DNA from: Methylocystis sp. L43
GTDB lineage: Bacteria > Pseudomonadota > Alphaproteobacteria > Rhizobiales > Beijerinckiaceae
Reading direction: 5' to 3'
Assembly (NCBI RefSeq): GCF_015709525.1
Contig: NZ_JADNRA010000032.1
Location: forward strand, 62,001 to 126,000
Length of the DNA: 64,000 bases
The position numbers and the translations under genes were made by a program. Under the pieces are notes generated by a model that saw only the letters and a list, made by a program, of their open reading frames with translations, was not told where the DNA came from and did no database searches. This document shows, piece by piece, positions 25,744-38,121 of the stretch (positions are counted from its first letter, which is position 1; each line of letters opens with the position of its first letter).

Positions 25744-26889
25744 ATGGACGACCGGCCTGCCTATTATGAATTCTTCGCCGGCGGCGGCATGGCCCGCGCC
25801 GGCCTCGGCGACGGCTGGCGTTGTTTGTTCGCCAATGACTTCGATCGCAAAAAAGCCGAAAGCTATCGCGCCAATTGGGGCGGCGAGGCGCTGCACGTCG
25901 GCGACGTGCGCGAGTTATCCACAGCGCAATTGCCAGGCCGCGCCGATCTCGTCTGGGCGTCCTTCCCCTGTCAGGACCTGTCGCTCGCCGGCGCCGGCGC
26001 GGGGCTGAAGGGCGAAAGGTCCGGGACGTTCTGGCCGTTCTGGGATTTGATGAAGGCGCTCCGTAAGGAGGGCCGTGCGCCGTCGCTCATCGTGCTCGAA
26101 AATGTCTGCGGCGCGCTCACCTCGCATGGCGGCAAGGACTTTACCAAAATCTGCGAGGCGCTGGCGAAAGAGCGCTACAGATTTGGCGCGCTGGTCATCG
26201 ACGCGGCGCTGTTCGTGCCGCAATCGCGCCCGCGGCTGTTCATCATCGCCGCGCGAGAGGATGTCGCGGTTCCTTCTGCGTTGATGAGGAAGAGTGCAAG
26301 CGCGCCGTTTCACACCCGCGCGCTTGTCGCGGCGCATGAACGCCTGCCCAAGCGGCTACGCGACAACTGGCTCTGGTGGAATTTGCCGGCGCCGCCGCTG
26401 CGCAATACAGCGCTGATCGACGCGATTGAAGACGCTCCGACGGATGTGGCGTGGCATAGCGTAAGCGAGACAAATGTGCTCATCGCCATGATGAGCGACG
26501 TCAATCTCGCGAAGATCGCCGAGGCGAAGCGCGCCGGGCGCAAAATGGTTGGAACGCTCTATCGCCGCACGCGCTATCAGCATGGCGCAAAGGTCCAGCG
26601 CGCCGAGGCGCGTTTCGACGAGGTTGCGGGGTGTCTGCGCACGCCGGCCGGCGGCTCGAGCCGGCAATATGTGCTGGTCGTCGACAAGGGCAGTGTGCGC
26701 TCGCGGCTGATGTCGGCGCGCGAGACCGCGCGGCTGATGGGACTGCCGGAAGATTATTTGCTCCCCGCGACCTATAGCGACGCCTATCATTTGACCGGCG
26801 ACGGCGTCGTCGTTCCGGTCGTGCGCCACATTGCAGCGAGCCTGTTGGAGCCGTTGCTGAATACATGCGTCGTGCAGGAGGCGGCTTGA
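25744..26889 (+). CDS. dcm: DNA (cytosine-5-)-methyltransferase
   Basis: A 381-residue C5-cytosine DNA methyltransferase. Motif I (cofactor binding) is FFAGGGMARAGLG at residues 10-22, motif IV with the catalytic cysteine is FPCQDLSLAG (C76), and motif VI is LENVCG at 118-123. QSRPRLFIIA is motif VIII, and the C-terminal ARLMGLPEDY block with a GDGVVVPVVRHIA ending matches motifs IX-X. It methylates cytosine in a sequence that cannot be read from the protein. A vsr gene follows 151 bp downstream and no restriction enzyme gene is beside it, so it looks like an orphan methyltransferase protected by mismatch repair. The pair is bracketed by two copies of repeat C. Confidence 0.9.
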   Translation: MDDRPAYYEFFAGGGMARAGLGDGWRCLFANDFDRKKAESYRANWGGEALHVGDVRELSTAQLPGRADLVWASFPCQDLSLAGAGAGLKGERSGTFWPFWDLMKALRKEGRAPSLIVLENVCGALTSHGGKDFTKICEALAKERYRFGALVIDAALFVPQSRPRLFIIAAREDVAVPSALMRKSASAPFHTRALVAAHERLPKRLRDNWLWWNLPAPPLRNTALIDAIEDAPTDVAWHSVSETNVLIAMMSDVNLAKIAEAKRAGRKMVGTLYRRTRYQHGAKVQRAEARFDEVAGCLRTPAGGSSRQYVLVVDKGSVRSRLMSARETARLMGLPEDYLLPATYSDAYHLTGDGVVVPVVRHIAASLLEPLLNTCVVQEAA

Positions 26890-30895: not shown

Positions 30896-31071
30896 TAGCC
30901 CGCGGTTCGGACTGTCTGGCCTCGGGCGGGATCGCCCGGGCCGGCTCCGCTTCCAAATTCCCCCGCCTTGGGGTATGAGACGCTGCATCGCAACAACAGC
31001 CAGCGTCTCCAGTTCCCGGCCGCTCTCGGGCGGCCGCAGAGGCGGCTGTTTTACCTGGCCGGCCTTTGAAC

Positions 31072-32892
31072 ATGCAGCTGCGCAACATCGCCATCATCGC
31101 CCACGTCGACCATGGCAAGACCACGCTCGTCGACCGCCTGCTCCAGCAGTCGGGCGCCTTTCGCGAAAACCAGCGCGTCGCCGAACGCGTGATGGATTCG
31201 AACGACCTCGAAAAAGAGCGCGGCATCACCATCATGGCGAAGGCCACCTCCATCACCTGGAAGGATGTGCGCATCAACATCGTCGACACGCCCGGCCACG
31301 CCGATTTCGGCGGCGAGGTGGAGCGCATCCTGTCGATGGTCGATGGCGCCATCGTGCTCGTCGACGCCGCCGAAGGCCCGATGCCGCAGACGAAATTCGT
31401 CGTCGGCAAGGCGCTCAAGATCGGCCTGAAGCCGATCGTCTGCGTCAACAAGGTCGACAAGCCCGACGCCCGCGTGTCGGAAGTCGTCAACGAGGTCTTC
31501 GATCTCTTCGCCGCGCTCGACGCCACCGACGAGCAGCTCGACTTCCCGATCATCTACGGCTCCGCCAAGCAGGGCTGGATGGCCGAGGAGCCGACCGGCC
31601 CGCAGGACGGCATGGCGCCGCTCTTCGATCTCGTCGTCAAGCATGTGCCGGCGCCCACCGTCGAGGACGGCGGCTTCCGCATGCTCGGCACGCTGCTCGA
31701 AGCCAACCCCTATCTCGGCCGCATCATCACCGGCCGCGTCTTCGCCGGCAGCGTGAAGCCCAATCAGGCGGTGAAGGTGCTCGACCGCACCGGCAAGATC
31801 GTCGAGCAGGGGCGTGTTTCGAAAATTCTCGCCTTCCGCGGCATTGAGCGCCAGCCGATCGAAGAAGCGGAAGCCGGGGACATCGTCGCCATCGCCGGCC
31901 TCGAAAAATTCAACGTCGCCGACACGCTCTGCGCGCTGGAAGTCAACGAGCCGCTGCAGGCGCAGCCGATCGATCCGCCGACGCTCTCCATGACCTTCCT
32001 CGTCAATGACAGCCCGCTCGCCGGCACGGAAGGCGACAAGGTGACGAGCCGCATGATCCGCGCGCGTCTCTTCAAGGAGGCCGAAGGCAATGTCGCGCTG
32101 CGCGTCGAGGACGCGCCGGCGGGCGACGCCTATATCGTCTCGGGCCGCGGCGAATTGCAGCTCGGCATTCTGATCGAGACCATGCGCCGCGAGGGTTTCG
32201 AGCTTGGCGTCTCGCGCCCCAAGGTCGTTTTCAAGAAGGATGAGAACGGCGACATTTTGGAGCCGATCGAAGAGGTCGTCATCGACGTCGACGAGGAGCA
32301 TTCTGGCGTCGTCGTTCAGAAGATGAACGAGCGCAAGGCCGAGATGATCGAGATGCGCCCGTCGGGCGGCAATCGCCTGCGTCTCGTCTTCCATGCGCCG
32401 ACGCGCGGGCTGATCGGCTATCAGGGCGAACTTCTCACCGACACGCGCGGCACGGCGATCATGAACCGGCTGTTCCATGAATATGCGCCTTATAAGGGCG
32501 AGATTCAGGGCCGCCGCAACGGCGTGCTGATCAGCAATGATTCCGGCGAGGCCGTCGCCTATGCGATGTGGAAGCTGGAAGATCGCGGCCCGATGATGAT
32601 CGAGCCGGGCTGGAAGGTCTATAAGGGCATGATCGTCGGCGAGCATACGCGCGACAATGATCTCGAGATCAATGTCTTGAAGGGCAAGCAGCTCACCAAC
32701 ATCCGCACCCAGTCGAAGGACGAAGCGGTGCGCCTGACGCCGCCGATCCAGATGACGCTGGAAAAGGCGCTGGCCTATATCGAGGACGACGAGCGCGTGG
32801 AAGTGACGCCGAAGTCGATCCGCCTGCGCAAGGTGTTCCTCGACCCCAACGACCGCAAGAAGGCGAAGGGCAAGGCCGCGCTGGTGGAGTGA
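31072..32892 (+). CDS. typA: Translational GTPase TypA/BipA
   Basis: A 606-residue ribosome-binding GTPase. The ATG at 31072 is preferred to a TTG two codons upstream. GTPase motifs are [10 protein letters not shown] (G1), GITI (G2), DTPGHADF (G3), NKVD (G4) and GSAKQGW (G5). The C-terminal half carries the EF-G-like and BipA-specific domains ([43 protein letters not shown]). It promotes ribosome assembly and growth under stress or cold. Its stop is only 12 bp from the stop of the convergent SIR2 gene. Confidence 0.96.
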
Positions 32893-32903: not shown

Positions 32904-35900
32904 TCAGTCTTCTGCGTTGGTATGATCAGCGACTGCGACCGAGATTTCAAAATCAACGTAGTCCTTGATCAAACCGAGAGCTCCAATTTCGGTCCACAAG
33001 CGTCGCGCTTGGTCGCAGAGCGCTGCACGCTTGGCTTCATCATGCTCGAGAAGGCTGGCACAAAACGCTCGCCAGCCCGGCGCTGCAAGTTTGGCAGGGT
33101 CACCCTCTTCATATCGCAGGATCTTGTCGACGGCGTCAGCCAGACGAGAGCGGTCACCCTGGCGGGCAGTAATTTGCGCAAGGCGTAAGTTGCTGTGGGC
33201 GATGCCCCACTTCACGCCAAGCGACTCATATGATTGCAATACCTGAGTAAAAATGGTTTCGGCTCGGACGGGGTCTAGTCTCAATTGGACTTCCCCGATC
33301 AGATAGTTAGCATTTGCCTCGCCCAGCGTTGCAGTAACCTTCTGGTAGATGGCTCGCGCCTCCTGGAGATAGGCTTGGGCGGCATCCAGATTGTAAAGTC
33401 TTAGCGCCAGATCGCCCAGCGCTTGGAGCGTATTCGCCTGCCCTAACCTGTCGCCGACCTGAAGGCAGATATCGCGCGCCTCTTCGAGAAGCGTTTGCGC
33501 GCCGTTGAGGTCGTCACGTCGGAGCGCCAGATTTCCCAGGGATTGAAGCGCATTTGCTTGGCCAAGCCGGTTGCCGACCTGAAGGCAGATATCGCGGGCC
33601 TCTTCGAGAAGGGTTTGCGCGCCGTTGAGGTCGTCACGTCGGTGCGCCAGATTTCCCAGGGATTGAAGCGCATTTACATGGCCAAGCCGGTTGCCGACCT
33701 GAAGGCAGATATCGCGCGCCTCTTCGAGAAGGGTTTGCGCGCCGTTGAGGTCGTCACGTCGGAGCGCCAAATTTCCCAGCAATTGAAGCGCATTTGCTTG
33801 GCCAAGCCGGTCGCCGATCTGAAGGCAGATATCGCGCGCCTCTTCGAGATGGATTTGCGCGCCATTGAGGTCATCACGTCGGAGCGCCAGATCTCCCAGC
33901 GATTGAAGCGACTGTGCTTGGCCAAGCCGATCGCTGATTTGAAGATAGAGATCGCGCGCCTCTTCGAGATGGGTTTGCGCGTCGACGAGGTCGGAACGTC
34001 GGAGCGCCAAACTTCCCAGCGATCGAAGCGCATTTGCTTGGCCAAGCCGGTCGCTGATGTGAAGGTAGATGTCCCCCGCTCGTTCGAAGTGGGTCTGCGC
34101 GTCATTGAGATCATCACGTTGCTCTGCCAGATCACCCAGCGATCGAAGCGTATTAGCTTGCCCAAGCCGTTCACCAATTTGAAGGTAGATGTCACGCGCC
34201 TCTTCGAGAAGGGTTTGCGCACCGTCGAGATCGTGACGCCGCGCTGCTAGATCGCCCAGCGACCGAAGTGCATTAGCTTGGCCAAGCCGATCTCCGATCT
34301 GCAGGCATATGTCGCGCGCTTCTTCGAAGTAGTTTCGCGCACCATTGAGATCGTGACGCCGCGCCGCCAGATCGCCCAGCGATCGAAGTGCATTAGCTTG
34401 GCCAAGCCGATCTCCAATCTGCAGGCAAATGTCCCGCGCTTCTTCAAAATGGGTTTGCGCTTGCTCCGAAGCATCCCGGCGCAGAGCCAGATGGCCTGCC
34501 GCGTGAACGGCTTGAGCTGCTGCGCTCTTCGACTCACTCGCGCTACGCTCCTTCAGAATCAACGCAAGCTTAAGAAAGGTTGTTTGATCAAAGCGTCGCT
34601 CACTGGCGGAAAGTAGGCGCGCTGATTCGATAGCTTGCCTTAACTTTCTAACTGGTTGATCACGAGCGGCTTGGAGGAGGACCGGCGCAAAATTCCGCAG
34701 ATGCGGCAGCAGCTCGGCTTCCGCTGCCGGCCACCCTGTCGTTCCGAAGTTCTTCCCTTTTTCAAGCAGCTTCATTACTGCCCTTACAACTCGTTGAAGC
34801 TCCTCTCCCCTTAGGGGCTTCTCGATGCTCACCGCTTCACGCAGCGGATTGAGAAGCTTAATCGAGCCATCGGGCCGCGGCGCAATAAGACGTAACTGTC
34901 GCAAACTATCTGTGGCGGCATCCGACTTTGCCGCGCTGATCTGCCGATCTTCGCGACCAAGAAAGGCCTTCATTCCACCCGGCGGAATGCCGTCGGGGAG
35001 GAAGCCGAGGATGGCGAGGAGCCGGTTGGCCATAGGGGATAAACGCCGAGAAGTGAGTGACACGCGTAACGACGCCATAACTGAGTTATGACGATTTTCT
35101 TGAGCGCCTGGCTGGCGCAACAATTCAGCTTTCTCGTCTTCCCATCGCCTCAGCATGGGACCAAGCGTGAGATCGCTGTCGACGCGGCTTGCCATTATCG
35201 TAAGAGAAAGAGCGTGACCGTCGAGCGCTGCCAAAAGGGGCGGGAGGTCTGGATCGTCTCTTCGTATGTTCGTTGCAATGCCGCAAAATAGATCGCGACT
35301 TTCGTCCAATGGTAGGGGCGATAAATCGTCGATCTTTGTCCAGCCTAACAGGAATGGTAGGCCTTCGCGGCTAGTCACAACAAACGAAAGACCAGCGGTG
35401 TCTCTCAGCAAACTTAAAATGCGGCTGGTCTCGGGCTCATCGGCTTCTATCAAACCTTCAACATTGTCCAAAATTGCGAAGGCTGATTCCTGTCCGCATG
35501 AGTAACGGATGGCCGCGAGAGTCGCGCTCTGTGTCGGTTCCGGACTAAGCCCGAGTTCGGCCGCCAAAAGAATGAATACATCAAGAGGGTCCGTGCGGTT
35601 TTCGAGGTTGACGAACACGCGTCTTTCGCCAAACTTTTCAGTTAGCCTCTCATCATAACTCGCGGCGACCGCGACTGTCGTTTTTCCCATCCCTGGTCCG
35701 CCGGTGATGATGCATGGACGGCCTTCTGTTGCGGCTGTGACGACTCTGTTGATTTCGTCGCGACGTCCGACGGGGTGCGGATTGGCGATCGCCAAGTCGA
35801 TGCGGTTTACTTTGATCGCGGAAGCTTGAGGTCCCGAGTTTTCGGGAGCTAAACTTCTGAGGAACTCCGGCAGTTTTTCATGCTTTGGACCGTAAGAAAC

Positions 35901-36656
35901 TAAAGTGACGTTATCTGGCCAGCCCGGCGTTGCCACCTCGTCGTCGGTGACTAACGCAACGTGCTTTTTGCCTAACCCGCCCCATAACGAACTGAACCAT
36001 TTTAACAGACGCCCGACATTTTGATCCGCAAGGCCATCCGCCGAGCAACCGACAAAGACAAGTGTGTCAGCGAATGCCGCTTGCCGCTGAAGAAACTGCG
36101 CACGATCACTATGGTTTACTCTATCGTAATCGGCGTTCGAAAAAACTACTGACTCGGGTTCTTCCCAATAGCCGTGGATATGCCAGACATTCGAGGATTC
36201 TCCCGACAAAATTTCCGCGACTGACTCGGGGCTAAGCCAAGTTTTTGGCTGAGCGCCTTTTTTTGTGCAAAGCAGACCGTCATAATTGGTTGTCGCGAGA
36301 CGGCAGTCGAGCGCGATAATTGCATCGAGAAGAGCGGGCTCGTTAGCTTTTAGCTTGCCCACATTGTTCTTCAGCCAAACGCGATAGTCATTGCTCTTAA
36401 AGCCTCCCAATTTTGTCTGAGCAATATTGGCTGAATTGAGCCAGACGTCAGGATCGTTCCGCGTCAGTCCCTCTCGGCAATGATCGCTCCAATCTTCTCC
36501 AGGTTCTTTTGGAGCTGAATCGATTGCGCTCTCAATGAGGCCTTTCCAGCCGGGTGCGGCTCCCCCAGTGACGGCCCTGCTTACCCCTGCGCCGCAAACG
36601 ATTAGAGCTTTCGCGCCGGATATGACGGTTCTGAGTGCTTCAATAGAATCAGACAT
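32904..36656 (-). CDS. SIR2-NB-ARC-TPR STAND protein, probable anti-phage defence
   Basis: A 1250-residue three-part protein. I chose the ATG at 36656 behind AAGG; TTG 36677 and ATG 36671 are alternatives. Residues 10-270 form a SIR2-like domain: IVCGAGVSRA (GAGVS at 22-26), ATTNYDGLL (N124) and WHIHGYWEEPE (H161), with FVGCSADGLADQN following, all features of an NAD-consuming active site. Residues 295-640 are an NB-ARC-type STAND ATPase: Walker A GGPGMGKTT (319-327), Walker B AILDNVE (394-400), sensor arginine in VTSRE. Residues 750-1109 are nine 40-residue TPR-like repeats plus degenerate ones. This matches SIR2-STAND defence proteins such as Avs5, where ligand sensing by the C-terminus triggers NAD depletion. 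Codon use is visibly less GC-biased than neighbours, which suggests acquisition. No partner gene is evident. The defence function is inference from architecture. Confidence 0.85.
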   Translation of the reverse strand: MSDSIEALRTVISGAKALIVCGAGVSRAVTGGAAPGWKGLIESAIDSAPKEPGEDWSDHCREGLTRNDPDVWLNSANIAQTKLGGFKSNDYRVWLKNNVGKLKANEPALLDAIIALDCRLATTNYDGLLCTKKGAQPKTWLSPESVAEILSGESSNVWHIHGYWEEPESVVFSNADYDRVNHSDRAQFLQRQAAFADTLVFVGCSADGLADQNVGRLLKWFSSLWGGLGKKHVALVTDDEVATPGWPDNVTLVSYGPKHEKLPEFLRSLAPENSGPQASAIKVNRIDLAIANPHPVGRRDEINRVVTAATEGRPCIITGGPGMGKTTVAVAASYDERLTEKFGERRVFVNLENRTDPLDVFILLAAELGLSPEPTQSATLAAIRYSCGQESAFAILDNVEGLIEADEPETSRILSLLRDTAGLSFVVTSREGLPFLLGWTKIDDLSPLPLDESRDLFCGIATNIRRDDPDLPPLLAALDGHALSLTIMASRVDSDLTLGPMLRRWEDEKAELLRQPGAQENRHNSVMASLRVSLTSRRLSPMANRLLAILGFLPDGIPPGGMKAFLGREDRQISAAKSDAATDSLRQLRLIAPRPDGSIKLLNPLREAVSIEKPLRGEELQRVVRAVMKLLEKGKNFGTTGWPAAEAELLPHLRNFAPVLLQAARDQPVRKLRQAIESARLLSASERRFDQTTFLKLALILKERSASESKSAAAQAVHAAGHLALRRDASEQAQTHFEEARDICLQIGDRLGQANALRSLGDLAARRHDLNGARNYFEEARDICLQIGDRLGQANALRSLGDLAARRHDLDGAQTLLEEARDIYLQIGERLGQANTLRSLGDLAEQRDDLNDAQTHFERAGDIYLHISDRLGQANALRSLGSLALRRSDLVDAQTHLEEARDLYLQISDRLGQAQSLQSLGDLALRRDDLNGAQIHLEEARDICLQIGDRLGQANALQLLGNLALRRDDLNGAQTLLEEARDICLQVGNRLGHVNALQSLGNLAHRRDDLNGAQTLLEEARDICLQVGNRLGQANALQSLGNLALRRDDLNGAQTLLEEARDICLQVGDRLGQANTLQALGDLALRLYNLDAAQAYLQEARAIYQKVTATLGEANANYLIGEVQLRLDPVRAETIFTQVLQSYESLGVKWGIAHSNLRLAQITARQGDRSRLADAVDKILRYEEGDPAKLAAPGWRAFCASLLEHDEAKRAALCDQARRLWTEIGALGLIKDYVDFEISVAVADHTNAED
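33330..34409 (-). repeat. Nine tandem 120-bp repeats encoding TPR units
   Basis: The C-terminal part of the SIR2-NB-ARC gene contains nine tandem 40-codon units of the type RLGQANALQSLGNLALRRDD followed by LNGAQTLLEEARDICLQVGN. Units 6 to 9 (about 33450-33930) are almost identical at the DNA level, while the outer units diverge. Such arrays gain and lose units by recombination or slippage, so copy number may vary between strains. They form a superhelical surface likely used for target recognition. Confidence 0.92.
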
Positions 36657-36800
36657 CAACGGCCTTAACATTTGCAAAAAGTTGGGCCGTCTTTTTAGGG
36701 TGAGTCAAGTAAGATTTAGCGGGCGAGGGCGAACGGCGTGGTGAAGCGGGCGTGCCTCACCCGCCGACAAGATGACGCCAGAAGAAGCAGTCGCTTATGA

Positions 36801-37817
36801 CTACTGCAGCCCCACTGCATCGACCACCCCGCTCGGGCAGCCGGGGTCTGTCGCCGGCGCGGCGGCGATAAGATCGGCGAGTTTGCTGTCGGGTTTGACG
36901 TCTCCCACCAATCCGATGGTCATCTCGACGATGAGATTGCGGCCGCCGTCTCTCTTGCAGGCGACGCGCACGCGATCCGCGGCGCCGTCGCCAAAGGTCT
37001 CATTGAACGCCGCCTTGAGTTGGTCGCGCGTGATCTCCTCGCCGATATGCGCCGCGAAAAGCCCCTGAACCTTGGAGCCATTCAGCTGCGACATCAGCGC
37101 GAGCGTCCGTGAAAAATAGATTTCCGCCGCGCTTCCCGGAAAGCACGTGCCATGTTTGATCCACTCATGCCGTTCGAGCAGCGACATCGTTCCTGGCATG
37201 ACTTCCGACAGCGCATGCCTTGTCGCGTCGGAGAGTTCGGGCTCGGGCAGGCCGTTCCATCTATTGTCCTTATCGGCGGCGACGATGTGGCGATCGACGT
37301 TGCAATATTGTTTTTTGGGCCAGAGCCCATGCAGCGTGAAATGCGTCGCGTCGAACCGGTCGGGTCTTTGCGTTTCGCATTCCGTCTTGTCGGGCTTGCC
37401 TTCGCAAAAGGCCGGCTGCCAGCTCACGGCGAGGATGTAATCCGGCTTTTGCGCCGCGGGGCCGCCGTCAGGCTCTTGCCCGCCCGAGGCTTCTTCGCCG
37501 CCGCTCCCCGGCTGGCCGCCGCCCTCAGCGAGCGTCGCCTCGCCGCATCCGACCGCGACCCACCGGCGCCCCGGCTGAGCGTCGGGGACATCGATGAGAT
37601 AATGTGTCGCGTTCGGCTTGTTCTTGGCGAAAATGGAATAATGCCCATTCGGCTCGACGCTGATGTTGCCCGGATTGGCGCCGGTTCTGATCGATTGAAG
37701 CGCGGGACAGGACTGACGGGCTAGAAAAGTTCCCGATGCAGGCGTATCCGCCGTCGCGCCTGAGGCGACGAGCGACAATGACGAGCAAAGCAGCATTCGA
37801 ACAGCGCGTGCGCGCAT
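36801..37817 (-). CDS. Secreted ribonuclease T2 family protein
   Basis: A 338-residue exported protein from the ATG at 37817, which has GGAG seven bases upstream. A signal peptide ends near ATADTPAS. The C-terminal half has both catalytic segments of the RNase T2 family, FTLHGLWP (CAS I) and RHEWIKHGTC (CAS II), with several cysteines. The roughly 130 residues before the catalytic domain include a low-complexity acidic/glycine stretch (GGGQPGSGGEEASGGQEPDGG) and are not recognisable. It would degrade RNA in the periplasm or outside the cell. It is adjacent to, but probably independent of, the SIR2 gene. Confidence 0.9.
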   Translation of the reverse strand: MRARAVRMLLCSSLSLVASGATADTPASGTFLARQSCPALQSIRTGANPGNISVEPNGHYSIFAKNKPNATHYLIDVPDAQPGRRWVAVGCGEATLAEGGGQPGSGGEEASGGQEPDGGPAAQKPDYILAVSWQPAFCEGKPDKTECETQRPDRFDATHFTLHGLWPKKQYCNVDRHIVAADKDNRWNGLPEPELSDATRHALSEVMPGTMSLLERHEWIKHGTCFPGSAAEIYFSRTLALMSQLNGSKVQGLFAAHIGEEITRDQLKAAFNETFGDGAADRVRVACKRDGGRNLIVEMTIGLVGDVKPDSKLADLIAAAPATDPGCPSGVVDAVGLQ

Positions 37818-38019
37818 GACAAAACTCCACAAAATCAGCAACACGCGGAAGGGTAATCGCGGCGGCGCAGGCGAGCAAGCATTGTCTGGTTGCGCGATTC
37901 TTTCGACGTCCACGAAAGCGACGTCTCGTCAGGGATGAAACTCCGGCGAACCTCCTCAATTGTATTGAGGCACATTCCAAGGAAAAAGGTGGCCGTGAAG
38001 GGCATGGCGCTCACGAAGC
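37818..38019. other. Intergenic region upstream of the RNase T2 gene
   Basis: No gene is supported in the roughly 200 bases between the RNase T2 start and repeat family A. The RNase T2 promoter should lie here, and the sequence is locally less GC-rich around 37930-37990, but I cannot name -35 and -10 boxes with confidence. Confidence 0.5.
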
Positions 38020-38121
38020 AACCTCATCCTGAGGAGCGACCGAAGGGAGCGTCTCGAAGGACGAGGTTGCTTCGCCCTCGTGCTTCGAGACGGCTGCTGC
38101 GCAGCCTCCTCAGCATGAGGG
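38020..38121. repeat. Dispersed palindromic repeat family A, second copy
   Basis: It begins AACCTCATCCTGAGGAGCGA and contains GCGTCTCGAAGGACGAGG, then the mirrored GTGCTTCGAGACGGCTG and CTCCTCAGCATGAGG. It matches the copies at 9526 and 46638 with the halves in a different order, and it folds into two hairpins. It lies between the 5' end of the RNase T2 gene and the 3' end of the pseudouridine synthase gene. Confidence 0.8.

Follow-up and report, generated by a model that had tools for sequence, protein, structure and literature searches.

A FAM118-like SIR2–STAND–TPR receptor gene with a changing repeat array at a variable chromosomal slot in Methylocystis, a probable NAD-consuming defence protein

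From the available literature, it can be seen that the Avs proteins are the best-known bacterial NLR-like receptors and that they are reported to sense conserved phage proteins; the published Avs5 carries an nSTAND3 domain (PMC12931631). FAM118B is reported to form filaments, to process NAD jointly with FAM118A and to lie closer to the bacterial anti-phage sirtuins than to the human SIRTs (PMC12700824). Repeat turnover is described for fungal NLRs (PMC4986451, PMC12222747), among which high internal conservation is set at 85% identity or more across 100 or more amino acids of repeats (PMC4986451). In this study, a gene of the methane-eating bacterium Methylocystis sp. L43 was investigated in a window of 64,000 nucleotides (contig NZ_JADNRA010000032.1, positions 62,001 to 126,000), to which all coordinates refer unless stated otherwise. 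The gene encodes a protein with an N-terminal SIR2 domain, a STAND ATPase and a TPR array, here called the receptor, and we consider that it is probably an NLR-like single-gene abortive-infection NADase with a diversifying sensor.

A single open reading frame fills 32904..36677 on the minus strand, a point the initial annotation had left unstated. Read from the ATG at 36656 (MSDSIEAL), the receptor gene occupies 32904..36656 and encodes 1250 amino acids plus a stop codon, with a second in-frame ATG at 36671; the frame is open in all three alleles found. Pfam, whose residue numbers run one higher than the 1250-residue numbering, recognised SIR2_2 at 122-241 (1.2e-13), AAA_22 at 314-434 (7.4e-9) and TPR_12 in eight stretches (5.1e-45). 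These domains, together with the motifs described below, bear out the joining of SIR2, STAND ATPase and TPR in one protein that had been proposed in the initial annotation.

The SIR2 domain spans residues 1-281 (35814..36656, minus strand), and its SIR2_2 motif set GAGxS, TTNxD and HG is complete as GAGVS, TTNYD (N124, codon 36285..36287) and HIHG (H159 and H161, the latter with its codon at 36174..36176). The key asparagine and histidine expected at the outset, N124 and H161, are intact, and together with H159 they are invariant in six of six aligned SIR2 domains. The active site, whose loss among orthologues had been named as a ground for rejecting the defence reading, is conserved in two orthologues and three distant relatives. 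When the six-sequence profile was compared with solved structures, FAM118B ranked first (4.9e-38, positions 13-274), followed more weakly by ThsA (1.5e-10), KomC (6.1e-10) and DSR2-type entries (1.3e-8), a ranking within a collection for which the presence of an Avs5 structure was not established. FAM118B also came first in single-sequence searches with the SIR2 domains of the receptor (6.5e-6) and of a distant relative, L054 (1.1e-15). For all four, FAM118B, ThsA, KomC and DSR2, NAD processing or NADase activity is proven. That this type of SIR2 domain occurs with TPRs is not new in itself, because the tree legend of PMC12700824 names TPR among the extra domains of the included SIR2_2 proteins.

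The ATPase lies at about residues 290-610 (34827..35789, minus strand, approximate borders), where AAA_22 scores above its cut-off. The claim that the Walker motifs are intact stands for Walker A, GGPGMGKT, at residues 319-326 (35679..35702, minus strand), of which the final residue is S in the two orthologues. Among solved structures, the ATPase profile found Disease resistance RPP13-like protein 4 (3.5e-4, residues 317-534), which we take to be ZAR1, then MLA13 (0.0028) and NRC3 (0.0037). The receptor itself gave no direct Pfam match to NB-ARC (PF00931) at E<=0.01; the label NB-ARC-like is used because its relatives match that domain (L055 at 6.3e-18, L058 at 5.3e-6) and because of the weak profile match to plant NLRs.

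The TPR array consists of ten units of 40 residues (120 nucleotides each) at residues 716-1115 (33312..34511, minus strand), and a single-sequence model of residues 661-1250 (mean pLDDT 74.5) predicts a ladder of helix pairs. The solved-structure matches of this model were headed by a plant TONSOKU chain and included the TPR domains of LGN/Pins, with TM-scores by target of up to 0.80. An AlphaFold2 model of residues 1-700, built from two sequences, reached a pLDDT of only 35 and was discarded.

The units appear to turn over between alleles. Unit number is 10 in this genome, 10 in G004 and 6 in G006, the two other Methylocystis genomes with the gene. Core units number 20 of 26, as the first and last unit of each gene were left out of the core counts and kept in the tree. 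Within genes, core units are on average 79.6% (this genome), 78.9% (G004) and 84.3% (G006) identical in DNA, and neighbouring ones reach 94.2, 93.3 and 95.8%; between genes the figures are 69.0% (this genome and G004), 71.1% (this genome and G006) and 76.4% (G004 and G006). Same-position units of G004 and G006 are 75.0-76.7% identical when counted from the start and 70.0-79.2% from the end, against 92% for their heads. The nearest relative of 19 of the 20 core units lies in the same gene, a count that none of 20000 label shuffles attained (best 17). A tree built from all 26 units places units one to nine of this allele in a single clade (0.956) and joins the last unit of each of the three genes, these being orthologous (0.965); it needs six label changes, compared with a shuffled mean of 12.2 (none of 5000 as low). 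Such a pattern is what would be expected if units were duplicated and homogenised while the edges stayed fixed, and it is most distinct in this allele. The fungal level of internal conservation, applied to neighbouring units, is reached in two of the three alleles (120 amino acids here, 160 in G004, 80 in G006), and the repeat-number polymorphism and concerted evolution seen in fungal receptors are likewise present (10, 10 and 6 units; 19 of 20), with repeat assembly as the caveat. That the units came from elsewhere in the same genome was considered and rejected, as each of the three genomes holds a single array at E<=1e-8.

Comparison of the three alleles shows that they are mosaics. The DNA identity of the flanking genes typA, epmA, rluD and RNase T2 to their counterparts in G004 or G006 is 93.5-96.8%, and that of the head of the receptor gene only 82.6-82.9%; the G004 and G006 heads agree with each other at 91.9%. 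The C-terminal tail of this genome (residues 1118-1250; 32907..33305, minus strand), in turn, is 98.7% identical to that of G004 and 75.8% to that of G006. The head is under constraint, with a ratio of replacement to silent changes (pN/pS, uncorrected proportions) of 0.17-0.25, and the ratio in the TPR units, 0.36-0.60, is higher, with replacement changes not exceeding silent ones.

The receptor gene was detected in three of 39 Methylocystis genomes, always between typA and an RNase T2 gene; this sample comprised 37 genomes, to which G432 and G433, both without a match, were added later, and in 30 of the 39 completeness reaches 90% or more with contamination of 5% or less, so that absence is less sure in the incomplete ones. 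The gene is thus accessory and not the stable core gene that would have spoken against a defence role. The recent gain that had been suggested is borne out only in part, since the head differs by about 17% in DNA compared with 3-6.5% in the flanks; that difference indicates alleles older than their surroundings or exchanged independently of them. A scan of genome contigs gave one locus, in Methylocystis rosea SV97, with 83% identity over residues 1-660. At wider ranks, in samples that overlap and of which only some candidates per genome were scored, the matches listed at order level besides the receptor's own copy covered the head only in part (397 genomes; longest 270-656), two further matches at E<=1e-15 appeared at class level (385 genomes; G607 over 7-660, G678 over 8-344) and one at phylum level (398 genomes; G987 over 11-283). 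No relative came from viral contigs (scanned twice) or from phage records (scanned once), and a plasmid scan gave five partial matches, each of which covered less than 80% of the query.

Modules are exchanged among the relatives: L054 is SIR2-ATPase-TPR, L055 SIR2-NB-ARC-WD40 and L056 SIR2-NACHT, with NACHT just below its cut-off, and L057 and L058 carry a similar ATPase-TPR part behind a different N-terminus. L055 (979-5760) and L056 (3913-7275), in which the same SIR2 type is fused to NB-ARC-WD40 and to the NACHT-like ATPase, come from other alphaproteobacteria.

The presence of the gene at the typA locus, a check proposed at the outset, was followed at the junction between typA and RNase T2, which was read in the 15 genomes where the two genes lie together. 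It was not read in 23 of the 39, owing to no strong RNase T2 match, separate contigs or fragments, and G007, with other genes beside typA, was excluded from the count. Seven junctions hold a short spacer only (95-271 bp; G018, G016, G014, G017, G035, G012 and G001), three the receptor gene and five other inserts; the junction is a small variable slot. Three of the other inserts are unclassified, at 357 bp (G005), 830 bp (G023) and 1199 bp (G036). The G026 junction (5004 bp; L045 1050-5792) carries Vsr, a C5 cytosine methylase, an IS1595 transposase, an Eco29kI endonuclease and a 176-residue gene without a match, and this defence set gives modest support, short of proof, to a defence role for the receptor. 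The G021 junction (2989 bp) holds an FGE-sulfatase-like gene, a 166-residue gene with a weak AbiEi match (2.3e-5) and a 244-residue gene without a match.

Some further traces were noticed at this slot. The 166- and 244-residue genes of G021 form a two-gene pair (L043, 2211-3426), perhaps an undescribed defence pair. Two inserts of G021 are separated by a stretch (L043, 3563-3846) with remnants of the 3' end of typA (81 bp, 86%) and of the end of RNase T2 (185 bp, 70%), an arrangement that looks as though flank recombination had added a second typA/RNase T2 junction on top of the first. In G004, a 53-bp segment (L036, 10285-10337) resembling the 3' region of typA (87%) sits not next to typA but at the opposite end of the receptor gene, ahead of RNase T2, and is possibly a trace of cargo entry into the slot.

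Because of its architecture, its relatives and its site, we read the receptor as an NLR-like protein that would consume NAD. In the resting state, the NB-ARC-like STAND module may keep the SIR2 domain at the N-terminus switched off. The TPR superhelix would bind a foreign protein, most likely phage-derived, upon which nucleotide exchange and oligomerisation would follow, the clustered SIR2 domains would consume NAD+, and the infected cell would stop growing or die ahead of the spread of the invader. For the TPR array, it is proposed that 120-bp units are duplicated, lost and homogenised while its edges stay conserved; with allele segments also swapped at one chromosomal slot, recognition could change quickly. 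Phage appears the likeliest trigger.

Several observations weigh against this interpretation. PADLOC returned only partial matches on the receptor (TPR at 1.3e-19 and, within the SIR2 portion, PDC-S25, LmuA and ThsA at 7.5e-6 to 1.7e-5) and no defence gene among 10 neighbour proteins of three distant relatives, where Pfam showed a transposase beside L054 and otherwise ordinary genes. A recognised defence set occurs in just one of the five other junction inserts, the Eco29kI-type restriction-modification genes of G026. As for the sensor, only the units of this allele form a single clade, with those of G004 and G006 in several groups and many nodes weak; near-identical repeats are absent in the distant G607 and G239, and none of three distant relatives reaches 85% over 100 amino acids; and a search for positive selection found none in the TPRs (pN/pS 0.36-0.60) or at ligand-facing sites, with 0.56 at concave positions and 0.70 at the ten most variable positions, which were chosen afterwards.

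The sensor is open to a separate explanation, which we regard as somewhat doubtful, whereby whole arrays were imported from unsampled alleles or near-identical repeats were misassembled. Only three alleles are at hand, the mosaic of head and tail implies that segments are exchanged, and short-read assemblies of near-identical repeats proved unreliable in a fungus (PMC12222747); G006 is a genome of two contigs, and the other two genomes have 35 and about 60. In-array turnover is nevertheless better matched by the single clade of nine units in this allele, by neighbouring units at 93-96% DNA identity within each gene, as in-array expansion predicts, by open frames in all three alleles, and by the one array per genome, which leaves no second local donor. 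The trigger, for its part, cannot be read from sequence and the junction cargo is mixed rather than purely defensive, so a guard against plasmids, gene transfer agents or competitor toxins, acting by the same NAD-depleting mechanism, is imaginable; it seems unlikely, since the characterised relatives by architecture (Avs5; PMC12931631) and by SIR2 type (DSR2) respond to proteins of phages.

A MalT- or AfsR-like STAND regulator or signalling protein, whose SIR2 domain would produce a signal or alter a target instead of killing the cell, would account for the ATPase-TPR module of L057 and L058 under another N-terminus and for the score of the TPR part against the AfsR model, far below cut-off (76.8 vs 1430 bits). 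This is improbable in view of the rare and variable presence (3 of 39), the rapid change of the sensor and a SIR2 type closest to immune proteins that consume NAD. That the receptor is simply an Avs5 protein, the family to which the initial annotation had likened it, is the least credible of these alternatives. SIR2_2 (PF13289, 1.2e-13, above cut-off), the STAND ATPase and C-terminal TPR-type repeats (TPR_12 in eight stretches, helical hairpins) do follow the order described for Avs5 (PMC12931631). The Avs5 ATPase domain nSTAND3 (PF20720), however, scores 16.6 bits against a cut-off of 27.2 and only at residues 302-333, in the Walker A region; the ATPase profile is nearest to plant NB-ARC proteins among solved structures; and no Avs-named model appeared among PADLOC and NCBIfam matches at 1e-3, in libraries whose holding of an Avs5 model was not checked. 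Because nSTAND3 stays below its cut-off, we do not file the receptor as Avs5, though it may work like one, and the alternative raised at the outset, a distinct branch, fits better. Membership in Thoeris as ThsA, presumably a SIR2 protein with a C-terminal SLOG domain, is not indicated either: no SLOG model was among the receptor's Pfam matches, and the PADLOC ThsA match covers only 123-224.

The surroundings of the gene agree with what had been anticipated. Its GC content is 55.8%, against about 60-70% in non-overlapping 1-kb windows on either side, and typA, RNase T2 and RluD are housekeeping neighbours. One flank of the junction is typA (31066..32892, plus strand; TIGR01394 above cut-off), convergent with the receptor gene, the two stop codons lying 11 bp apart; the other is the RNase T2 family gene (36801..37913, minus strand; PF00445), ending 144 bp upstream of the receptor ATG. 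Promoter-like (three, 1.1 expected) and terminator-like (four, 5.2 expected) sites were scanned for, and none was relied on. Elsewhere in the window, 25744-26889 (plus strand) encodes a C5 cytosine DNA methyltransferase (558 bits against PADLOC DruM2, 358 against a type II methyltransferase model) that adjoins an RNase J gene, with no partner defence gene among nine neighbours scanned, and an inverted repeat, its 45-nt arms 9 nt apart, lies between the RNase T2 and RluD genes (38022-38120).

Among known systems, the vertebrate SIR2 proteins FAM118B/FAM118A (PMC12700824) align with the receptor's SIR2 domain over profile positions 13-274, TTN and HIHG included, FAM118B being matched in this domain only and having no ATPase or TPR part. 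ThsA, DSR2 and KomC share the TTNxD and HG motifs and a profile match to the catalytic part, but their matches are weaker (1.5e-10 to 1.3e-8), cover about positions 86-244 only, and the rest is unrelated by sequence. Like Avs5 (AVAST type 5), the receptor is a single protein with an N-terminal SIR2_2, a STAND ATPase and C-terminal helical repeats, and it keeps GAGxS and TTNxD; it differs in its NB-ARC-like ATPase, ten regular 40-residue TPRs and canonical HG motif, where Avs5 has nSTAND3 and few TPR, Sel1 or PPR repeats, and PaAvs5-1 has NG (PMC12931631). What appears new is repeat turnover in a bacterial SIR2-STAND protein: in the openly licensed PMC literature, supplements excluded, no earlier report of a bacterial SIR2-NB-ARC-TPR protein of this kind was found. 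If the reading is true, a sensor rebuilt by repeat recombination would be a strategy different from that of Avs, bacteria could be used to test how repeat arrays encode NLR specificity, with three natural alleles making specificity swaps directly testable, and a SIR2 type linked to vertebrate immunity (FAM118B) would be tied to a bacterial NLR scaffold. More tentatively, and at somewhat less than even chance in our judgement, this may be a bacterial NLR that alters recognition by recombining near-identical TPR units and swapping allele segments at one slot, driving a FAM118-like SIR2 NADase, and so a prokaryotic parallel to the HNWD and NB-ARC/TPR receptors of fungi, which evolve fast. With the fungal NLRs of high internal repeat conservation, it shares a layout of NB-ARC-like ATPase and TPRs, nearly identical units, polymorphism in repeat number and concerted evolution (PMC4986451, PMC12222747); it stands apart from them in being bacterial, known from three alleles, free of detected positive selection, and armed with a SIR2 effector.

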